Shown: in pieces, positions 4,682 through 28,710 of the stretch
Layout: each line of letters starts with the position of its first letter
Position numbering within the stretch: the first letter of the stretch is position 1
Assembly (NCBI GenBank): GCA_022767125.1
Contig: JALEPZ010000067.1
Coordinates: 1-33,174, forward strand
Origin: Phocaeicola plebeius
GTDB lineage: Bacteria > Bacteroidota > Bacteroidia > Bacteroidales > Bacteroidaceae
Length of the DNA: 33,174 nt
Direction of reading: 5' to 3'
The notes under the pieces: generated by a model
Databases searched by the model: none
What the model was told of the DNA's origin: nothing
The model's input: only the letters and a program-made list of their open reading frames with translations
Program-made: the position numbers and the translations under genes

Positions 4682-5195
4682 CAAAAAAAAATCCGGTGGC
4701 GGATGCAAACCGCTCAAAACTTGGAGATGAAAAGGTTACATCCATTGAATTCAAAAGCAATGCAGAAAGGAACTTTATCTGACAAAAAGCAGCGGAGAAA
4801 CAGGCAGTCTATCTCTGTCTTGTTACAAATCATTTACACTTTATGATACCGACTTCCCAGATAGGAGAGAATTAGTTGGTTAAAGACAAAGTTTGAAGTT
4901 GATGCTTACGGTGTATGCTATAACTGTATCTCTGAATGTGGAGGGAGAGACTGTAGTGCTCTCGCTCACACATTCGGGTTACCCCTTATACATACTCACG
5001 TGGGTATTACTCAGACACAACTATACATCATGGGAGAAGAGCAGTTTAGATATAAATCATGGATTCCATGTCCCATTTCATCAATTTTATGCTGAATGAT
5101 ACATAATCATAAACCGTAAAATCCCAAATTATACATTTTTTCACGAGTATTTTAACAAGTAGAAAATTGTGCTCACTGAGCTTAAAACATTTGAC
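4682..5195. other. AT-rich intergenic region between the regulator and the fimbrial operon
   Basis: About 500 bases with no convincing gene. Short open frames of 68-73 codons exist on both strands but lack start signals and family resemblance. A 6+6 bp palindrome (CATGGA T TCCATG, 5058-5070) and a small GAGAG...CTCTC hairpin near 4946-4966 are visible. I found no long inverted repeats of the kind that bracket invertible promoters. The region probably holds the divergent control elements of the two flanking transcription units. Confidence 0.5.
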
Positions 5196-5203
5196 TACAT
5201 TTG
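5196..5203 (+). promoter_or_regulatory. Likely -7 box of the fimbria-type operon
   Basis: TACATTTG matches TAnnTTTG, 17 bases before the ATG at 5220. No clear -33 element is found at the usual distance, which fits a promoter needing an activator. The transcript leader would be only about ten bases. Confidence 0.5.
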
Positions 5204-5219
5204 CTTCAAAAAAAGAGAC

Positions 5220-5792
5220 ATGGTAACAAATAGAGTTTGGATGAGCCTCATGGCCATCCTCGTCCAAACATTCCTTCTTTTAGAAGCGCAAGCGCAGGAA
5301 GCAGCCATCAAGACGAACGCCTTGTATCTGCTGACAGGGACAATGAACATCGGCGGCGAACTGGCCACCGGAGAACAAACCTCCCTTTCGCTGCAAGTGC
5401 AATACCATCCGTGGGAATGGGGCAACAACAAAAAAATGAAACACATTTGGGTACAACCGGAATACCGCTACTGGTGGAAAGGGGTGTTCACGGGTAGCTT
5501 CATGGGCATCCACCTGAACTGGGCGAACTATAACATCGCGAAAATGCCTCCCATCACTACCCTCAAGAACCATCGTTACCAGGGCAATGCCATCGGCTGC
5601 GGCCTGACCTATGGCTACCAATGGCTGTTGGGCACCTACTGGAACCTCGAGACCAGCGTATCAGCCGGCTACCTGCATCTGCACTACAAACGATACGGAC
5701 CGGAAAAGAACGACCCGATGGAGAAGGAATCGTATTCGAACTACATAGGTCCGTACCAAGTAGGCGTAACGCTGACCTATTTCCTGCGATAG
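5220..5792 (+). CDS. DUF3575 family outer-membrane-associated protein, 190 aa (copy A)
   Basis: I place the start at Met 5220, not at the upstream Met 5169. From there a signal peptide (MVTNRVWMSLMAILVQTFLLLEAQAQ, cleavage after AQAQ) leads straight into AAIKTNALYLLTGTMNIGGELA, the characteristic DUF3575 opening. The body has alternating aromatic beta-strand-like segments (WVQPEYRYWWKGVFTGSF, GLTYGYQWLLGTYWNLE) and ends in Arg after YFL, compatible with a small beta-barrel or periplasmic partner. It is clearly paralogous to the protein at 6870-7442, with identical length (190 aa) and shared motifs (HYKRY, WNIE/WNLE...SAGY, YVGP/YIGP). It is the first gene of the fimbria-type operon. DUF3575 proteins commonly accompany Mfa-type fimbrial genes in Bacteroidales; the biochemical role is unknown. 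Confidence 0.83.
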   Translation: MVTNRVWMSLMAILVQTFLLLEAQAQEAAIKTNALYLLTGTMNIGGELATGEQTSLSLQVQYHPWEWGNNKKMKHIWVQPEYRYWWKGVFTGSFMGIHLNWANYNIAKMPPITTLKNHRYQGNAIGCGLTYGYQWLLGTYWNLETSVSAGYLHLHYKRYGPEKNDPMEKESYSNYIGPYQVGVTLTYFLR

Positions 5793-23494: not shown

Positions 23495-23926
23495 ATGGCA
23501 CAATACGAAAGTAATGTAAAGCACGTTCCCTATAGCCAGGAACAAGTTTATAACAAACTGTCCGACCTGAACCATCTCTCTTCGCTCCGCGACCGCATGG
23601 ACCTGATCAAGGAGAAGCTGGACGGCAAACTGGAGGACATGAGTTTTGACACTGACTCGCTGACCCTGAAAGTGCAGGGCATCAGCCTGACCCTGCGCAT
23701 CATCGAACGCGAAGCACCGAAATGCATCAAGTTCGAGGGCGCCAACTCTCCCATACCGATGAACCTTTGGATACAGATGCTCCCTGTCGGGGCGACAGAG
23801 GCCAAACTGAAAGTAACCATCCGGGCGGAAGTGAACATGTTCATGAAGGCAATGGTGGCCAAGCCATTGCAGGAGGGTGTAGAGAAGCTGGCGGACATGC
23901 TGGCAATGATTCCCTATAATAACTAG
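23495..23926 (+). CDS. SRPBCC-fold ligand-binding protein, 143 aa
   Basis: A START/SRPBCC-like small protein. It opens with a strand (YESNVKHVPYSQEQVYNKLSDLNHLSSLRDRM), has alternating strands with KVQGISLTLRIIEREAPKCIKFEGA, and ends in a long amphipathic helix (MKAMVAKPLQEGVEKLADMLAMIPY) that would cover the cavity. This family binds hydrophobic ligands or acts in polyketide-like chemistry; no ligand can be predicted here. There is no signal peptide, so it is cytoplasmic. It lies 8 bp before argH, suggesting co-transcription with it. Confidence 0.85.
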   Translation: MAQYESNVKHVPYSQEQVYNKLSDLNHLSSLRDRMDLIKEKLDGKLEDMSFDTDSLTLKVQGISLTLRIIEREAPKCIKFEGANSPIPMNLWIQMLPVGATEAKLKVTIRAEVNMFMKAMVAKPLQEGVEKLADMLAMIPYNN

Positions 23927-23934
23927 AATTGATA

Positions 23935-25275
23935 ATGGCTCAGAAACTTTGGGAAAAAAGCGTTCAAGTGAACGCAGAAATCGACCGCTTCACCGTAGGG
24001 CGGGACCGCGAGATGGACCTCTATCTTGCCAAGCACGACGTACTGGGATCGATGGCACACATCACCATGCTGGAGAGCATCGGCTTGCTGTCATCCGATG
24101 AACTGAACGTATTGCTGGAAGAGCTGAAGAACATCTACGCTTCGGCGGAAAAAGGAGAATTTGTCATCGAGGATGGCATCGAAGATGTCCACTCGCAGGT
24201 GGAACTGATGCTGACCCGCCGGCTGGGCGACATCGGCAAGAAAATCCACAGCGGACGTTCGCGCAACGACCAGGTACTGGTGGACCTGAAACTGTACACA
24301 CGCGAACAGATTCGCCTGCTGGCCGAATCCGTAGAGGAGCTTTTCCATGTACTGATTGAACAAAGCGAAAAATACAAGCACGTGCTGATGCCGGGATATA
24401 CCCACCTGCAGGTAGCCATGCCTTCTTCATTCGGACTCTGGTTCGGCGCATATGCCGAGAGTCTGGTGGACGATATGCTCTTCCTGCAGTCGGCCTACCG
24501 GATGTGCAACCGAAACCCGTTAGGTTCGGCAGCCGGCTATGGTTCTTCCTTCCCGCTCGACCGCGCGATGACCACGCGCCTGCTGGGCTTCGACTCGATG
24601 AACTACAACGTGGTGTATGCCCAAATGGGTCGGGGAAAGATGGAACGGAACGTGGCGTTTGCCATGGCTTCCATTGCAGGCACACTGGCGAAGATGGCCT
24701 TTGATGCCTGTATGTTCAGCAGCCAGAACTTCGACTTCGTGAAACTGCCCGACGAGTGTACCACCGGCTCCAGTATCATGCCGCACAAGAAGAATCCCGA
24801 CGTGTTCGAACTGACCCGTGCCAAGTGCAACAAGCTCCAGGCATTGCCTCAGCAGATCATGCTCATCATGAACAACCTGCCTTCAGGCTACTTCCGCGAC
24901 CTGCAGATTATCAAGGAAAGCTTCCTCCCTGCGTTCGGCGAGCTGCAGGACTGCCTGCACATGGCCACCTACATCATGGACAAACTGTACATCAACGAGC
25001 ACATCCTCGATGACGACAAGTATCTGTACATGTTCAGTGTTGAGGAGGTGAACCGTCTGGCCGCATCGGGAATGCCGTTCCGGGATGCCTACAAGAAAGT
25101 GGGACTCGACATCGAGGCAGGCCGCTTCACGCACAACAAGGAAGTCCATCACACCCATGCAGGCAGCATCGGGAACCTGTGCAACGACCACATCGTAGAA
25201 CTGATGCGGGAAGTGATGAAGGGTTTCCATTTCGAACGGGCCGCCGCTGCCGAAAAGGAACTGTTGGGACGATAG
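23935..25275 (+). CDS. argH: Argininosuccinate lyase, 446 aa
   Basis: Last step of arginine synthesis: splits argininosuccinate to arginine and fumarate. Family motifs are DVHSQVELMLTRRLGDIGKKIHSGRSRNDQV in the N-terminal third, PGYTHLQVAMPSSFGLWF near 155, and the fumarase-superfamily signature GSSIMPHKKNPD near 278-289 with the catalytic Ser on its flexible loop. I use the Met at 23935 (MAQKLWEKSVQ), not the one at 23929. Length is close to the usual 450-460. It is 8 bp after the SRPBCC gene. Confidence 0.96.
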   Translation: MAQKLWEKSVQVNAEIDRFTVGRDREMDLYLAKHDVLGSMAHITMLESIGLLSSDELNVLLEELKNIYASAEKGEFVIEDGIEDVHSQVELMLTRRLGDIGKKIHSGRSRNDQVLVDLKLYTREQIRLLAESVEELFHVLIEQSEKYKHVLMPGYTHLQVAMPSSFGLWFGAYAESLVDDMLFLQSAYRMCNRNPLGSAAGYGSSFPLDRAMTTRLLGFDSMNYNVVYAQMGRGKMERNVAFAMASIAGTLAKMAFDACMFSSQNFDFVKLPDECTTGSSIMPHKKNPDVFELTRAKCNKLQALPQQIMLIMNNLPSGYFRDLQIIKESFLPAFGELQDCLHMATYIMDKLYINEHILDDDKYLYMFSVEEVNRLAASGMPFRDAYKKVGLDIEAGRFTHNKEVHHTHAGSIGNLCNDHIVELMREVMKGFHFERAAAAEKELLGR

Positions 25276-25318
25276 CGTCCTCGCTATGGAATTAAAGACG
25301 AAGAAAACGGGGGAAATG

Positions 25319-25350
25319 TTTGGAAAATAAAGTGAAACTCCCTACATTTG
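25319..25350 (+). promoter_or_regulatory. Canonical Bacteroidetes promoter of tRNA-Leu
   Basis: TTTG (25319-25322), an exact 20 bp spacer, then TACATTTG (25343-25350). Both boxes match the consensus, making it the clearest promoter here together with the one at 25738. Transcription would begin near 25357, leaving a leader of about 80 bases before the tRNA. Confidence 0.82.
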
Positions 25351-25367
25351 CACCCGTTAATGGAAAA

Positions 25368-25400
25368 CCGACTCAGTCGGTGTCCAACCTTACAAAGGTT
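25368..25400 (+). other. Small hairpins in the tRNA-Leu leader
   Basis: CCGAC TCA GTCGG (25368-25380) and AACCT TACAA AGGTT (25386-25400) are adjacent potential hairpins in the transcribed leader. They may be processing signals or remnants; the function is unknown. Confidence 0.4.
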
Positions 25401-25438
25401 AGCGGGACGAGTTTGGATTTCATTTCTGCTCCAAGGTT

Positions 25439-25526
25439 GCTCGAATGGTGGAATCGGTAGACACGAGGGACTTAAAATCCCTTGGCCATTGCGGCTGTGC
25501 GGGTTCGAGTCCCGCTTCGAGTACCA
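25439..25526 (+). tRNA. tRNA-Leu (UAA)
   Basis: 88-nt class II tRNA with a long variable arm. Acceptor GCTCGAA pairs with TTCGAGT (one G-T), discriminator A, and CCA is encoded at 25524-25526. Anticodon loop CTTAAAA carries TAA, and the T arm is GCGGG-TTCGAGT-CCCGC. Confidence 0.96.
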
Positions 25527-25527
25527 C

Positions 25528-25568
25528 AAACGCCTCTTAATCTTATGATTCTGAGGCGTTTTATTTTA
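25528..25568 (+). terminator. Intrinsic terminator of tRNA-Leu
   Basis: Stem AAACGCCTC (25528-25536) pairs with GAGGCGTTT (25553-25561), with a small inner AATC/GATT stem and a T-rich tail. It begins two bases after the tRNA. Confidence 0.85.
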
Positions 25569-25726
25569 TCAGGTAGCCAAAGGGTCAAATGAATGACACT
25601 ATTCCCACTCTTTCATCCGTTGGAACTTCATGTTAGCCAATATGCCACCATCACCTTACGATGACAGTTACGGGTTTTGAGGTAGAAAAACAACAACTTA
25701 TAATTCTTGTTAATTCAGGAAAGAGG
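25569..25726. other. Spacer between tRNA-Leu terminator and toxin-antitoxin promoter
   Basis: About 160 AT-rich bases. A minus-strand fragment at 25599-25655 reads GDGGILANMKFQRMKEWE then stop, which looks like a protein C-terminus but is only 18 codons. No second copy of the tRNA-Leu 3' end was found near 26963, so no attachment site is supported. Confidence 0.35.
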
Positions 25727-25748
25727 TTGTAACCGGATTTGGTTACAA
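25727..25748. promoter_or_regulatory. Perfect palindromic operator over the toxin-antitoxin promoter
   Basis: TTGTAACC, six bases, GGTTACAA. The palindrome covers the -33 box TTTG (25738-25741), so a bound dimer would block RNA polymerase. The downstream gene begins with an XRE DNA-binding domain, the usual autoregulator of such modules. Confidence 0.65.
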
Positions 25749-25769
25749 TTAAAACTCTTAATATATTTG
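25738..25769 (+). promoter_or_regulatory. Canonical promoter of the toxin-antitoxin module
   Basis: TTTG at 25738-25741, 20 bp spacer, TATATTTG at 25762-25769. The ATG at 25792 leaves a leader of about 15 bases. Confidence 0.78.
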
Positions 25770-25791
25770 CATCCTACCAACCAACTTCAAT

Positions 25792-26307
25792 ATGTACGAG
25801 CAATATCTTCAACTAAGCAATATTCCTTGTGGTGCTGTACTAAACCGCATCATGTCAAAGGAAGGAATCAGCCAAAGCCAATTGGCAGAACGAAGTGGTA
25901 TTGTACGCCAACGAATCTGCGACTATTTGGCTAACAGAAGACGCATTACTGTTGAGGCATCATTGAACCTGGAAAAGGCACTTCGTATCGAAATCGAAGG
26001 TTTCTTTTATCGTATTCAAGCTAACCATGACATATACATCTGTGTGAAAGAACAAGCCATGCACAACCGTCCGAACCTGGGACATTACCGGAAGGCTGTC
26101 TTTTGGGATACCCATATTGACACGTTAGATTGGGAGAAGAATCGGCAGTGGATCATCCGTCGAGTATTCGAATACGGTGGGGAAAATGAAATTCTCGAAA
26201 CCATCCGTTTCTATACCAAGGATGTTGTCAGGGAAGTTCTTACGGGAATAGCCGATGAACGTAAGAAAGAAAGCCGCAACGAAAATATGAAGAAATACTT
26301 GGATTAA
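25792..26307 (+). CDS. Predicted antitoxin: HigA-like XRE domain fused to DUF6922-like domain, 171 aa
   Basis: Residues about 13-66 form an XRE helix-turn-helix (GAVLNRIMSKEGISQSQLAERSGIVRQRICDYLANRRRITVEASLNLEKAL). The following FFYRIQANHDIYI resembles the FWLNLQANYDL segment of HigA/VapI antitoxins. Residues about 101-150 (VFWDTHIDTLDWEKNRQWIIRRVFEYGGENEI) are of the DUF6922 type, which normally forms a separate small protein beside AbiEii toxins. Here one polypeptide carries both. The tail is charged (ADERKKESRNENMKKY). It is 2 bp upstream of the nucleotidyltransferase gene, as expected for a toxin-antitoxin pair, and its promoter is covered by a palindrome. Base composition is AT-richer than the flanks, suggesting acquisition beside the tRNA-Leu. 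Confidence 0.8.
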   Translation: MYEQYLQLSNIPCGAVLNRIMSKEGISQSQLAERSGIVRQRICDYLANRRRITVEASLNLEKALRIEIEGFFYRIQANHDIYICVKEQAMHNRPNLGHYRKAVFWDTHIDTLDWEKNRQWIIRRVFEYGGENEILETIRFYTKDVVREVLTGIADERKKESRNENMKKYLD

Positions 26308-26309
26308 GG

Positions 26310-26963
26310 ATGATGAGACTACATTACCAGACAGTATCTCCCGTATTAGTGGATTGCCTACATAAACTGATGGCACATCCTGCTTTCAAGGACTTCTATT
26401 TGGTTGGAGGCACATCGCTTGCTTTGCAGCGTGGACATCGTCTTTCCATTGACATTGACCTGTTCACTTGCATCCCTTATGGCCAGATGAAAACGACAGA
26501 GATAGAAGCTGCTTTATTAGAAATGTTCCCTTACACCGATCGAATTGATGAGCTACACAGTTCGCAAATGGTGTATTCATTGTATGTTGGCGAAAGTAAG
26601 GAAGATTGTGTCAAACTGGATTTGTGCTATGACGATGCCTTGATATTCCCGTTGATTGAGGTGGACGGTTTGCGTATTGCTTCTGAAAAGGAGATAGCCG
26701 CTATGAAAATCCAGGCAATCACACAAAGCGAACAACGACGAAAAGACTTTTGGGATATACACGAACTGCTTGAATCCTATACATTGTCCGAAATGATTGA
26801 TTGGGGAATACAACGTTACCCATGGTCGGTTATCCGTGAAAGTGTAAAGGATGGAATAGAACGACTTCCGCTAATTAACGACTTCACTGAAGTCGTCTGT
26901 ATGAAAGGAAAATACTGGGAGTTTATTGTTGAAGACCTGCTTGATGAAGCTAAAATTATTTGA
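26310..26963 (+). CDS. AbiEii/AbiGii-type nucleotidyltransferase toxin, 217 aa
   Basis: DNA-polymerase-beta-fold nucleotidyltransferase. The glycine motif YLVGGTSLALQRGHRLSIDIDLF gives Gly33-Gly34-Thr35-Ser36 and the metal-binding pair Asp48/Asp50; a third acidic residue is likely Asp104 in VKLDL. Lys133 in IAAMKIQAI and Asp146 in RRKDFWDIHELL match the conserved C-terminal family motif. Relatives (AbiEii, MenT) block growth by transferring nucleotides to targets such as tRNA acceptor ends; the target here is unknown. All key residues are present, so it is probably active. The start overlaps nothing and is 2 bp after the antitoxin. Two Met codons open the frame. It ends 2 bp from the convergent SDR gene. 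Confidence 0.87.
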   Translation: MMRLHYQTVSPVLVDCLHKLMAHPAFKDFYLVGGTSLALQRGHRLSIDIDLFTCIPYGQMKTTEIEAALLEMFPYTDRIDELHSSQMVYSLYVGESKEDCVKLDLCYDDALIFPLIEVDGLRIASEKEIAAMKIQAITQSEQRRKDFWDIHELLESYTLSEMIDWGIQRYPWSVIRESVKDGIERLPLINDFTEVVCMKGKYWEFIVEDLLDEAKII

Positions 26964-26965
26964 AA

Positions 26966-27706
26966 TCACCTAATGCGAAGCCGCACCCACAACCAGCGGG
27001 GGATGAGCCGCCAGCCGACAACGAGCAGACGGTAACGCCAGTCGATGACCACCACACGCCGGTTCCGTTCCAGCGCGTCCACCATCTGCCGGGCCACCCG
27101 TGCGGCGGACAACTGCAACGGATAATGCCCGTTGGCGATGAGGTCGGTGGCCACAAAGCCAGGACGGAAATCGGTGAACCGGACGGACAGGCCCTGAAGA
27201 CGGGCCAGCTGCGTAAGACTCTCTATGTAATGGCTCTGGAAACGCTTGGTCGCGGAGTAGGCCGGAGCAGCCCCCAACCCCTTAGTGCCGGCAATGGACG
27301 AGATACAGGCGATATGCCCCCCACCGTGCCGCCTCATCCAGTGGAAAGCGGTGTCCACCATGCGGACAAACCCCGCCGCGTTCGTAGCGACGGTCTGCAG
27401 CTCCTTCCCCACTTCCAGGTCCAGGTTCTGCCACCCGATGCCCGAGCTGTGGAAATAGAGATCCATGCCTCCCGTCGCGGCGGCTAGCTCCTCCAGCAAG
27501 GCAGGGGCCTCCTCACCGGTAACGTCAATGGCACGAGCCGCCACAATGCCTTCCGTGCCGCGGACCAACACGGAAAGGCGCTCCGCACGGCGGCCGGCCA
27601 CACCGACCGTCCATCCTCGCCGCGCCAGTTCCAAGGCCACCTCACGACCGATGCCCGAAGTGGCTCCCATCACAATCGCATATTTCTTTCCCAAGTTCTT
27701 TTCCAT
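26966..27706 (-). CDS. SDR-family NAD(P)-dependent oxidoreductase, 246 aa
   Basis: Classical short-chain dehydrogenase. The cofactor motif ATSGIG lies at 15-20 (from MEKNLGKKYAIVMGATSGIG), with FHSSG near 85-89 replacing the usual NNAG. The catalytic set is Ser137, Tyr150 and Lys154 (YSATK), and Asn109 completes the tetrad. A C-terminal hydrophobic, basic tail (WRYRLLVVGWRLIPRWLWVRLRIR) might contact the membrane. Substrate unknown. Met 27706 is chosen over 27757, whose extension overlaps the divergent transporter's promoter. Divergent from the EamA gene. Confidence 0.9.
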   Translation of the reverse strand: MEKNLGKKYAIVMGATSGIGREVALELARRGWTVGVAGRRAERLSVLVRGTEGIVAARAIDVTGEEAPALLEELAAATGGMDLYFHSSGIGWQNLDLEVGKELQTVATNAAGFVRMVDTAFHWMRRHGGGHIACISSIAGTKGLGAAPAYSATKRFQSHYIESLTQLARLQGLSVRFTDFRPGFVATDLIANGHYPLQLSAARVARQMVDALERNRRVVVIDWRYRLLVVGWRLIPRWLWVRLRIR

Positions 27707-27733
27707 GTTCTTTTCTATCTGAAGATTTGAAGT

Positions 27734-27741
27734 TACCTTTG
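27734..27741 (+). promoter_or_regulatory. -7 box for the first EamA transporter
   Basis: TACCTTTG, a match to TAnnTTTG, 27 bases before the ATG at 27769. No good -33 element is seen. Confidence 0.45.
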
Positions 27742-27768
27742 CGGCCGAATCCAACAACTACAACTGAC

Positions 27769-28710
27769 ATGAGACAGATACCTCGCATCCTCTCCCCATC
27801 AGGGAACGGCTGGTTCCATGTGCTGGCACTGGCCATCGTGGCCGTATGGGGCACCACCTTTATTTCCTCCAAGCAGCTGCTGCTGGCCGGACTCAGTCCG
27901 TCCGACATCATCTTCTACCGGTTCATCATCGCCTACGCCTGCTTAGCGTTCTGCCAACGTCCCTTCCGGCTGTGGGCCGACAACTGGAAAGACGAGGCAA
28001 GATTCCTGCTGTTGGGCCTGTTCGGCGGCACGCTGTACTTCCTGACCGAGAACTCCGCCCTGAAATACACCTACGTGTCGAACGTGTCGCTCATCTGTAG
28101 CACCACTCCCCTGCTGACACTGCTGCTGAAGTACTGGCTGGCGAAGCAGGGATGGCCCGGCCGCCGCCTGTTCCTCGGCTCCATCCTCGCCTTCGGAGGG
28201 GTGGCCATGGTGGTGTTCAACGGCCATTTCGCCTTTCACCTCAGCCTGAAAGGGGACCTGCTATGCTTAGGCTCCGCCTTGTGCTGGACCTTCTACACCC
28301 TGCTCATCGAACGGCTGGGCCGACGCTACTCCGTCGGGCTCATCACCCGGAAGATTTTCTTCTACAGCATCGTCACCCTGGCACCGTTCCTGGTGCAGGA
28401 CTCCCTGCTGGCCGACCCCGTCGTCCTGCTGTCCGCAGGGGTGGCCGGCCGGCTGTTCTTTCTGGGATTCGTGGCTTCCTTCCTCTGCTTCCTGCTCTGG
28501 AATGTCTGTCTGAAACGGCTGGATGCCATAGTCGCCACCAACTATATCTACCTGATGCCGGCCATCTCCATCCTCGTTTCCAACCTGACACTGGGCGAAA
28601 GCATCAACGCGGTCCTCATTGCCGGCACGCTGTTGGTCATTGCAGGCATGTATTGGGCCGGCCGAAACCCTTCGCCTACTGAGCCTTGTTCCCGTCGAGC
28701 CACTCCTTGA
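27769..28710 (+). CDS. EamA/DMT-family transporter, 313 aa
   Basis: Ten predicted TM helices in two EamA repeats. The first begins HVLALAIVAVWGTTFISSKQLLLAGLSPSDIIFYRFIIAYACLA (about 16-60) and the second LCLGSALCWTFYTLLIERLGRRYSVGLITRK (about 160-190). These carry family landmarks WGTTFI and PLLTLLLKYWL. The polar tail (PSPTEPCSRRATP) overlaps the antisense small ORF at 28676-28804. These exporters move metabolites such as amino acids or nucleotides; the substrate cannot be read. Met 27769 is preferred over 27727, which precedes the -7 box. Confidence 0.9.
   Translation: MRQIPRILSPSGNGWFHVLALAIVAVWGTTFISSKQLLLAGLSPSDIIFYRFIIAYACLAFCQRPFRLWADNWKDEARFLLLGLFGGTLYFLTENSALKYTYVSNVSLICSTTPLLTLLLKYWLAKQGWPGRRLFLGSILAFGGVAMVVFNGHFAFHLSLKGDLLCLGSALCWTFYTLLIERLGRRYSVGLITRKIFFYSIVTLAPFLVQDSLLADPVVLLSAGVAGRLFFLGFVASFLCFLLWNVCLKRLDAIVATNYIYLMPAISILVSNLTLGESINAVLIAGTLLVIAGMYWAGRNPSPTEPCSRRATP

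Follow-up and report, generated by a model that had tools for sequence, protein, structure and literature searches.

A predicted toxin–antitoxin module in Phocaeicola plebeius pairs an AbiEii-type nucleotidyltransferase with a fused HigA-like HTH–DUF6922 protein

Nucleotidyltransferase (NTase) toxins such as AbiEii and MenT are widespread, and their antitoxins have been described from few families; those of the MenT-family toxins are already reported to be diverse (PMC11375011). In AbiE systems (e.g. from Streptococcus agalactiae), the antitoxin gene comes first and the DUF1814 NTase gene second, the antitoxin has two parts with a DNA-binding N-terminus, and inverted repeats lie over the promoter. 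The AbiE antitoxin, AbiEi, is described as a winged-helix COG5340 protein whose C-terminal domain contains both helices and strands (PMC7319586, PMC3985639). Its C-terminal domain is reported to suffice for antitoxicity, with the full length needed for autoregulation (PMC7319586). MenAT1 and MenAT3 (TakA–TglT) of Mycobacterium tuberculosis also have a DUF1814 NTase, with Ser or Thr two residues before the first Asp of the DxD motif. Their antitoxins are of other kinds: MenA1 is described as a 68-aa protein with no apparent DNA-binding domain, and MenA3 and MenA4 as COG5340 members (PMC10435456). In Bacteroidota, stand-alone DUF6922 proteins pair with AbiEii-type partners. A full-text search of open-licence PMC articles for DUF6922 found no paper, and no paper on an HTH–DUF6922 protein beside AbiEii was found in the open-licence literature, judged by title and the start of the abstract.

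Here we describe a locus with the AbiE gene order and a different antitoxin. It lies in a 33,174-nt stretch of Phocaeicola plebeius DNA (GenBank assembly GCA_022767125.1, contig JALEPZ010000067.1, positions 1 to 33,174 of the forward strand), which we call the window and whose coordinates we use below. A tRNA-Leu (TAA) gene called by ARAGORN (25439..25526, + strand) is followed by a 171-aa ORF (25792..26307, + strand), which ORF calling, profile matches and fold mark as a HigA-like helix-turn-helix (HTH) head joined to DUF6922. Next comes the proposed toxin, a 217-aa AbiEii/DUF1814 NTase ORF supported by Pfam and alignment (26310..26963, + strand; a second ATG at 26313 is a possible alternative start). 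We consider it likely that the two genes form a toxin–antitoxin module of the AbiEii/MenT kind, in which the head represses the operon, DUF6922 neutralises the NTase and the freed NTase is toxic, and which was probably inserted at this site.

We infer that the HigA-like head dimerises and would bind a palindrome over its own promoter, repressing the operon. The DUF6922 tail would bind the NTase and switch it off, either by a direct block of the active site or by promoting phosphorylation of Ser46, as in MenT1 and TglT/MenT3. If the antitoxin were lost, the freed NTase would, judging from MenT and AbiEii, modify tRNA or a similar substrate, poison translation and stop growth. By analogy, the module would work like AbiE, with a DNA-binding head and an antitoxin tail, but both antitoxin domains are different from, and apparently unrelated to, those of AbiEi: its head is of the HigA type and its DUF6922 tail is short and all-helical, with no match to the COG5340 AbiEi. 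The plan is therefore already known and the parts are different, the architecture being a variant on an AbiEi-like division of labour. None of the MenA antitoxins above has the HTH–DUF6922 layout, and the module adds to the described antitoxins an architecture with a clear proposed functional split.

The head, DUF6922 and the NTase each score above their Pfam cut-offs. HTH_3 covers residues 23–70 of the antitoxin (25858..26001, + strand), and structure matches give the head a HigA/XRE fold, in which we take the helix at residues 39–46, with Gln40-Arg41, as the recognition helix. The NCBIfam HigA model TIGR02607 gives the head 31.3 bits, below its cut-off of 47.7; the fold agrees with HigA, but the adjoining gene is an AbiEii NTase and not HigB. 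DUF6922 (PF21956), the proposed toxin-neutralising part, covers residues 100–150 (26089..26241, + strand) at 71.3 bits against a curated cut-off of 27, and the structure model of residues 93–171 has a pLDDT of 96.1. A structure search with DUF6922 alone found no clear match to any solved structure, and no AbiEi family gave a Pfam match to the antitoxin at E up to 1. The initial annotation had read this ORF as a HigA-like head fused to a DUF6922-type domain at residues 101–150; both domain calls hold, the first by Pfam and fold match and the second by a profile match at almost exactly those residues.

The fused protein is common. A protein search returned seventy-seven homologue clusters, listed with both DUF6922 and HTH_3 in 63 cases, with DUF6922 only in 8 and with HTH_3 only in 6. 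When the window protein was aligned with 52 of these 77 homologues (alignment A1), both Pfam families were matched in 53/53 members, DUF6922 at E of 0.001 or better. DUF6922 matches were present in 19 of 60 relatives' genomes and in 39 of 392 genomes across the phylum, and the window's own genome has one DUF6922. Loci were taken for 15 of the 17 phylum matches that lacked one (G322 and G133 were left out) and for five weaker matches; stand-alone DUF6922 genes are under-sampled in what follows, because most weak matches fall outside the locus set. A single-sequence scan of genome contigs confirmed one locus, L024.

From these loci (L001–L160, window included) we scored 134 distinct DUF6922 ORFs, using labels from purpose-built HMMs on stop-to-stop ORFs and counting identical ORFs once. 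Fifty-nine have an HTH head, sixty-seven are stand-alone, and eight have another N-terminal extension. The last class is mixed: three members (L031, L035, L159) have a real extra N-terminus, L108, L155 and L156 are probable long-frame artefacts, L145 is probably a damaged fused copy, and L067 has a weak HTH (HTH_3 18 bits). The genome survey for the fusion beside NTases, suggested in the initial annotation, thus found the 59 distinct fused ORFs with an intact NTase next downstream in 42 cases, an interrupted or partial one in 10 (L112 included) and none in 7, among them L004, whose locus has only 609 bases downstream. The stand-alone genes mostly have the same order, with the NTase downstream in 44/67 (three of the partners counted intact, L053, L119 and L120, cover fewer than 180 of the 212 model positions), upstream in 2, in the same ORF in 1, broken in 2, at a contig end in 2 and absent in 16. 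L114 and L051 have the reversed order, with the NTase gene before the DUF6922 gene. Apart from the missing head, most stand-alone proteins differ from the fused form in having about 40 residues after the domain, with a motif recognised by eye (LDxKTLxF...FRCYT...HW) that was not seen in the fused form.

Upstream of the fused genes, the motif TAAMC-N6/7-GKTTA recurs as a palindrome. The window has a perfect inverted repeat, TTGTAACC-GGATTT-GGTTACAA (25727..25748), with the conserved core TAACC-N6-GGTTA at 25730-25745 within it; we predict that this is the operator from the motif's position upstream of fused homologues. It covers the sequence TTTG (25738..25741, + strand), a candidate -33 element read from the sequence, which lies 20 bases before TATATTTG (25762..25769, + strand), a candidate Bacteroidota -7 element from the comparison of upstream regions. 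Both fit the Bacteroides promoter consensus as described, TTTG / TAnnTTTG with its element at -33; the same source reports that Flavobacterium did not show the -33 motif (PMC7366714). The simple reading is that occupancy of the operator would block the promoter.

The motif was searched within 150 bp of the chosen start, with dinucleotide shuffles as controls. In the first set, fused genes had an exact copy in 28/44 cases and a copy with at most one mismatch in 37/44 (shuffles 0.12 and 3.0), whereas the stand-alone genes had 0/56 and 4/56 (shuffles 0.2 and 3.05). The motif was defined after inspection of nearly all 44 first-set loci. Because it came from those loci, we tested it on later fused loci, and this hold-out set is the sole independent test: the fused genes had exact copies in 11/15 and copies within one mismatch in 13/15 (shuffles 0.04 and 1.1), and the stand-alone genes had 0/8 by either measure. 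Over all loci, the counts are 39/59 exact and 50/59 within one mismatch for fused genes, and 0/67 and 4/67 for stand-alone genes. Nine of the 59 fused loci lack an operator within one mismatch, including L008, whose NTase belongs to the window's clade. When the count was widened to perfect inverted repeats of any sequence, with arms of 7 bases, 44/59 fused loci had one (shuffle mean 11.1, maximum 20), as did 17/67 stand-alone loci (shuffle mean 10.3, maximum 18). A conserved operator associated with the fused layout gives strong indirect support to the earlier proposal that one half of the antitoxin would serve for repression.

Two types of operator can be distinguished. The distance between the first base of the operator and that of the -7 element is 32 bp in 9/12 C-type loci (TAACC...) and 14 bp in 16/38 A-type loci (TAAAC...), and at the shorter spacing the operator therefore runs into the -7 box. 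In 12/12 C-type loci the head has Arg41, after Gln40. Residue 41 in the 38 A-type loci, of which L066 is so assigned on a probably spurious site, is Thr in 34, Leu in 2, Ser in 1 and Val in 1, and Arg in none (0/38). L008, where no operator was recognised, has Leu-Arg in its head. These counts are suggestive of a link between operator type and head residue 41. C-type loci with NTases in the tree described below group in one clade, so the match represents one evolutionary switch and not 50 independent cases. The comparison supplies a predicted operator and, in residue 41, a candidate specificity residue.

The NTase matches PF08843 at 59.4 bits (cut-off 22.5). In alignment A2, which contains the window and 37 NTases of the 120 matches listed, G33, G34, D48, D50, K133 and D146 are invariant across the 38 rows, motifs III and IV having been assigned by eye. 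The identification of an AbiEii-type NTase with its catalytic motifs is borne out by these residues and by Pfam. The R44-x-S46-x-D48-x-D50 motif (26439..26459, + strand), identified from the alignment and the tree set, has the same spacing as a TglT peptide given as R76-T-S78-K-D80-F-D82 (PMC7205606), and S46/D48 are spaced like T39/D41 of MenT1, when D41 is equated with the leading Asp of DxD (PMC10435456, PMC11375011). By this comparison of spacing, S46 corresponds in position to the phosphorylated residues T39 of MenT1 and S78 of TglT.

We constructed a maximum-likelihood tree from 105 NTases, comprising 96 that adjoin scored DUF6922 genes and nine others, one of which (L023) adjoins a sub-threshold DUF6922 match (25.1 bits). 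The S46 position holds Ser in 104/105, including the nine others, and the motif was not found in the remaining one. Ser46 is therefore a family trait that does not single out the fused family; its position makes the phosphorylation route testable and is not evidence for it. The conserved serine offers a test of antitoxin-driven phosphorylation outside mycobacteria. The forty-three fused-type partner NTases (L112 fragment included) all belong to a single clade with 44 members, supported at 100/100. The 44th member, L039, has as its partner a 79-aa DUF6922 protein without a head, which is best read as a loss of the head. From this topology the fused layout may have arisen once, with the order of the deeper forks weakly supported. 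The initial annotation had called the antitoxin a hybrid of two antitoxin classes, which overstates its rarity: the fusion occurs often among the loci sampled, and the NTases that accompany it group in one clade.

We assign neutralisation to DUF6922 because this domain is common to the fused and the stand-alone partners of these NTases. An alternative is a type IV-like arrangement, in which the antitoxin would act without touching the toxin, by protecting or repairing the target that the toxin attacks; this mode was first concluded for AbiE on a report that AbiEi and AbiEii do not interact (PMC3985639). We regard this as unlikely, since a related NTase is reported to be contacted by its antitoxin in MenA1–MenT1 (PMC10435456). 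A natural ORF in L157 (G888, 1454-2332; 1/134) also joins DUF6922 and the NTase in one protein, which is a weak point against the type IV-like arrangement because close relatives of this NTase (P0198) are separate proteins. The L157 fusion may reflect a lost stop. With L157 as query, no other DUF6922–NTase fusion was found by precomputed domains among the 120 matches listed of 801.

DUF6922 may have other partners, because 16/67 stand-alone genes have no nearby NTase and a further DUF6922 forms part of a fusion with UPF0175. This last case, in L044 from the same phylum (1462-2031; PF03683, 60.1 bits), has no NTase found within the locus. L031, L035 and L159 carry another type of N-terminus, about 75 residues long (WKRF...FSSLK.FC..Y...NTLNNYL), before DUF6922, with an NTase downstream; the two that were scanned, L031 and L035, had no Pfam match above cut-off in this part. 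A tentative extension, plausible though on balance not what we expect, is that DUF6922 is a general class of Bacteroidota NTase antitoxin that occurs alone or on swappable parts (a HigA-like head gained once, the N-terminus of L031/L035/L159, or UPF0175 in L044) and drives phosphorylation of the conserved serine, with heads that evolved specificity via residue 41. Either way, these comparisons offer a hypothesis on what this domain, classed in Pfam as of unknown function, does.

The two partners are not equally constant. We took the 30 best NTase loci among 393 genomes of the order: 29 adjoin DUF6922 (24 fused and 5 stand-alone), and in the exception, L214, the NTase lacks about 20 N-terminal residues. 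On the other side, 17/59 fused antitoxins have no intact NTase, and some of the broken NTases may be assembly errors. One could read this as a decayed or domesticated module, in which HTH–DUF6922 is now mainly a regulator and the NTase is no longer toxic: no NTase was found for 7/59 fused genes, and six of these seven kept the operator (exact in L004, L010, L024, L027 and L057, with one mismatch in L005; not in L146). For the window we find this improbable, as both ORFs are open, the catalytic residues are invariant among the 38 aligned sequences, and the empty site of a close relative suggests that the module was acquired recently. L024, a Parabacteroides distasonis MAG (SUXM01000006.1, about 5001-5522), has an antitoxin 87% identical to that of the window and the same operator. 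It is an orphan: no NTase was found in the 5 kb that follow it. The window's own genome contains another AbiEii-like NTase, a distant one at 28% identity (G000 contig C22, 24665-25072), with no DUF6922 in the locus examined.

HigBA has an XRE-type antitoxin that makes direct contact with its toxin. HigBA entries appear among our matches, and the HigA-like head could likewise be the neutraliser, with DUF6922 only dimerising or stabilising the protein, but we give this little credence because stand-alone DUF6922 without any head lies directly before the NTase in 44/67 cases, L039 within the fused clade has DUF6922 and no head, and the head goes with the operator.

The proposal of an inserted toxin–antitoxin module is also addressed by comparison with a close relative. 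In G013 (locus L191), matches to window positions 23901-25594 and 26961-28652 are adjacent and overlap by 5 bases, and alignment shows that the tRNA-Leu gene is present at this empty site too. The intervening 1366 bp (25595..26960, with borders good to a few bases) contain the operator, the promoter, and the antitoxin and toxin genes. Because a close relative has the empty site, the 1.37-kb module was probably gained here, as a precise insertion on the 3' side of tRNA-Leu. Loss of the module in G013 is possible, and gain is favoured because of base composition: GC is 0.415 in the module versus 0.557 in the flanks, and third-position GC is 0.45 and 0.41 in the two module genes versus 0.73 in argH. 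We found no duplication of 3–19 bases ending at the exact module borders; a very short border duplication is possible because the matches overlap by 5 bases in L191. The suggestion that the module was acquired, made earlier from its AT-rich composition and tRNA neighbour, is strengthened by the GC values and the empty site. The tRNA part fares less well, as the insertion is not within the tRNA gene but about 70 bp beyond it.

A phage origin was considered and rejected, as a search of phage DNA matched six records solely over the tRNA-Leu stretch. Relatives of the antitoxin were found in none of 50,697 phage records and in no viral contigs. The window also contains a tandem of three tRNA-Asn genes at positions 2-252.

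Homologues of the antitoxin do occur on plasmids, in four records with at most 44% identity and covering at least 84% of the protein. The hosts are Bacteroides fragilis, Phocaeicola vulgatus, P. dorei and Microscilla. In each of the three plasmids inspected (B. fragilis, P. vulgatus and Microscilla), the homologue has an AbiEii gene after it, and the plasmid records already annotate the homologue as a 'helix-turn-helix' regulator beside an AbiEii/AbiGii gene. On the B. fragilis plasmid (NZ_CP054002.1, about 35.8-39.9 kb), the NTase after the fused antitoxin is longer (307 aa), and a second gene annotated as AbiEii/AbiGii lies two genes upstream of the antitoxin, with a toprim gene between them.
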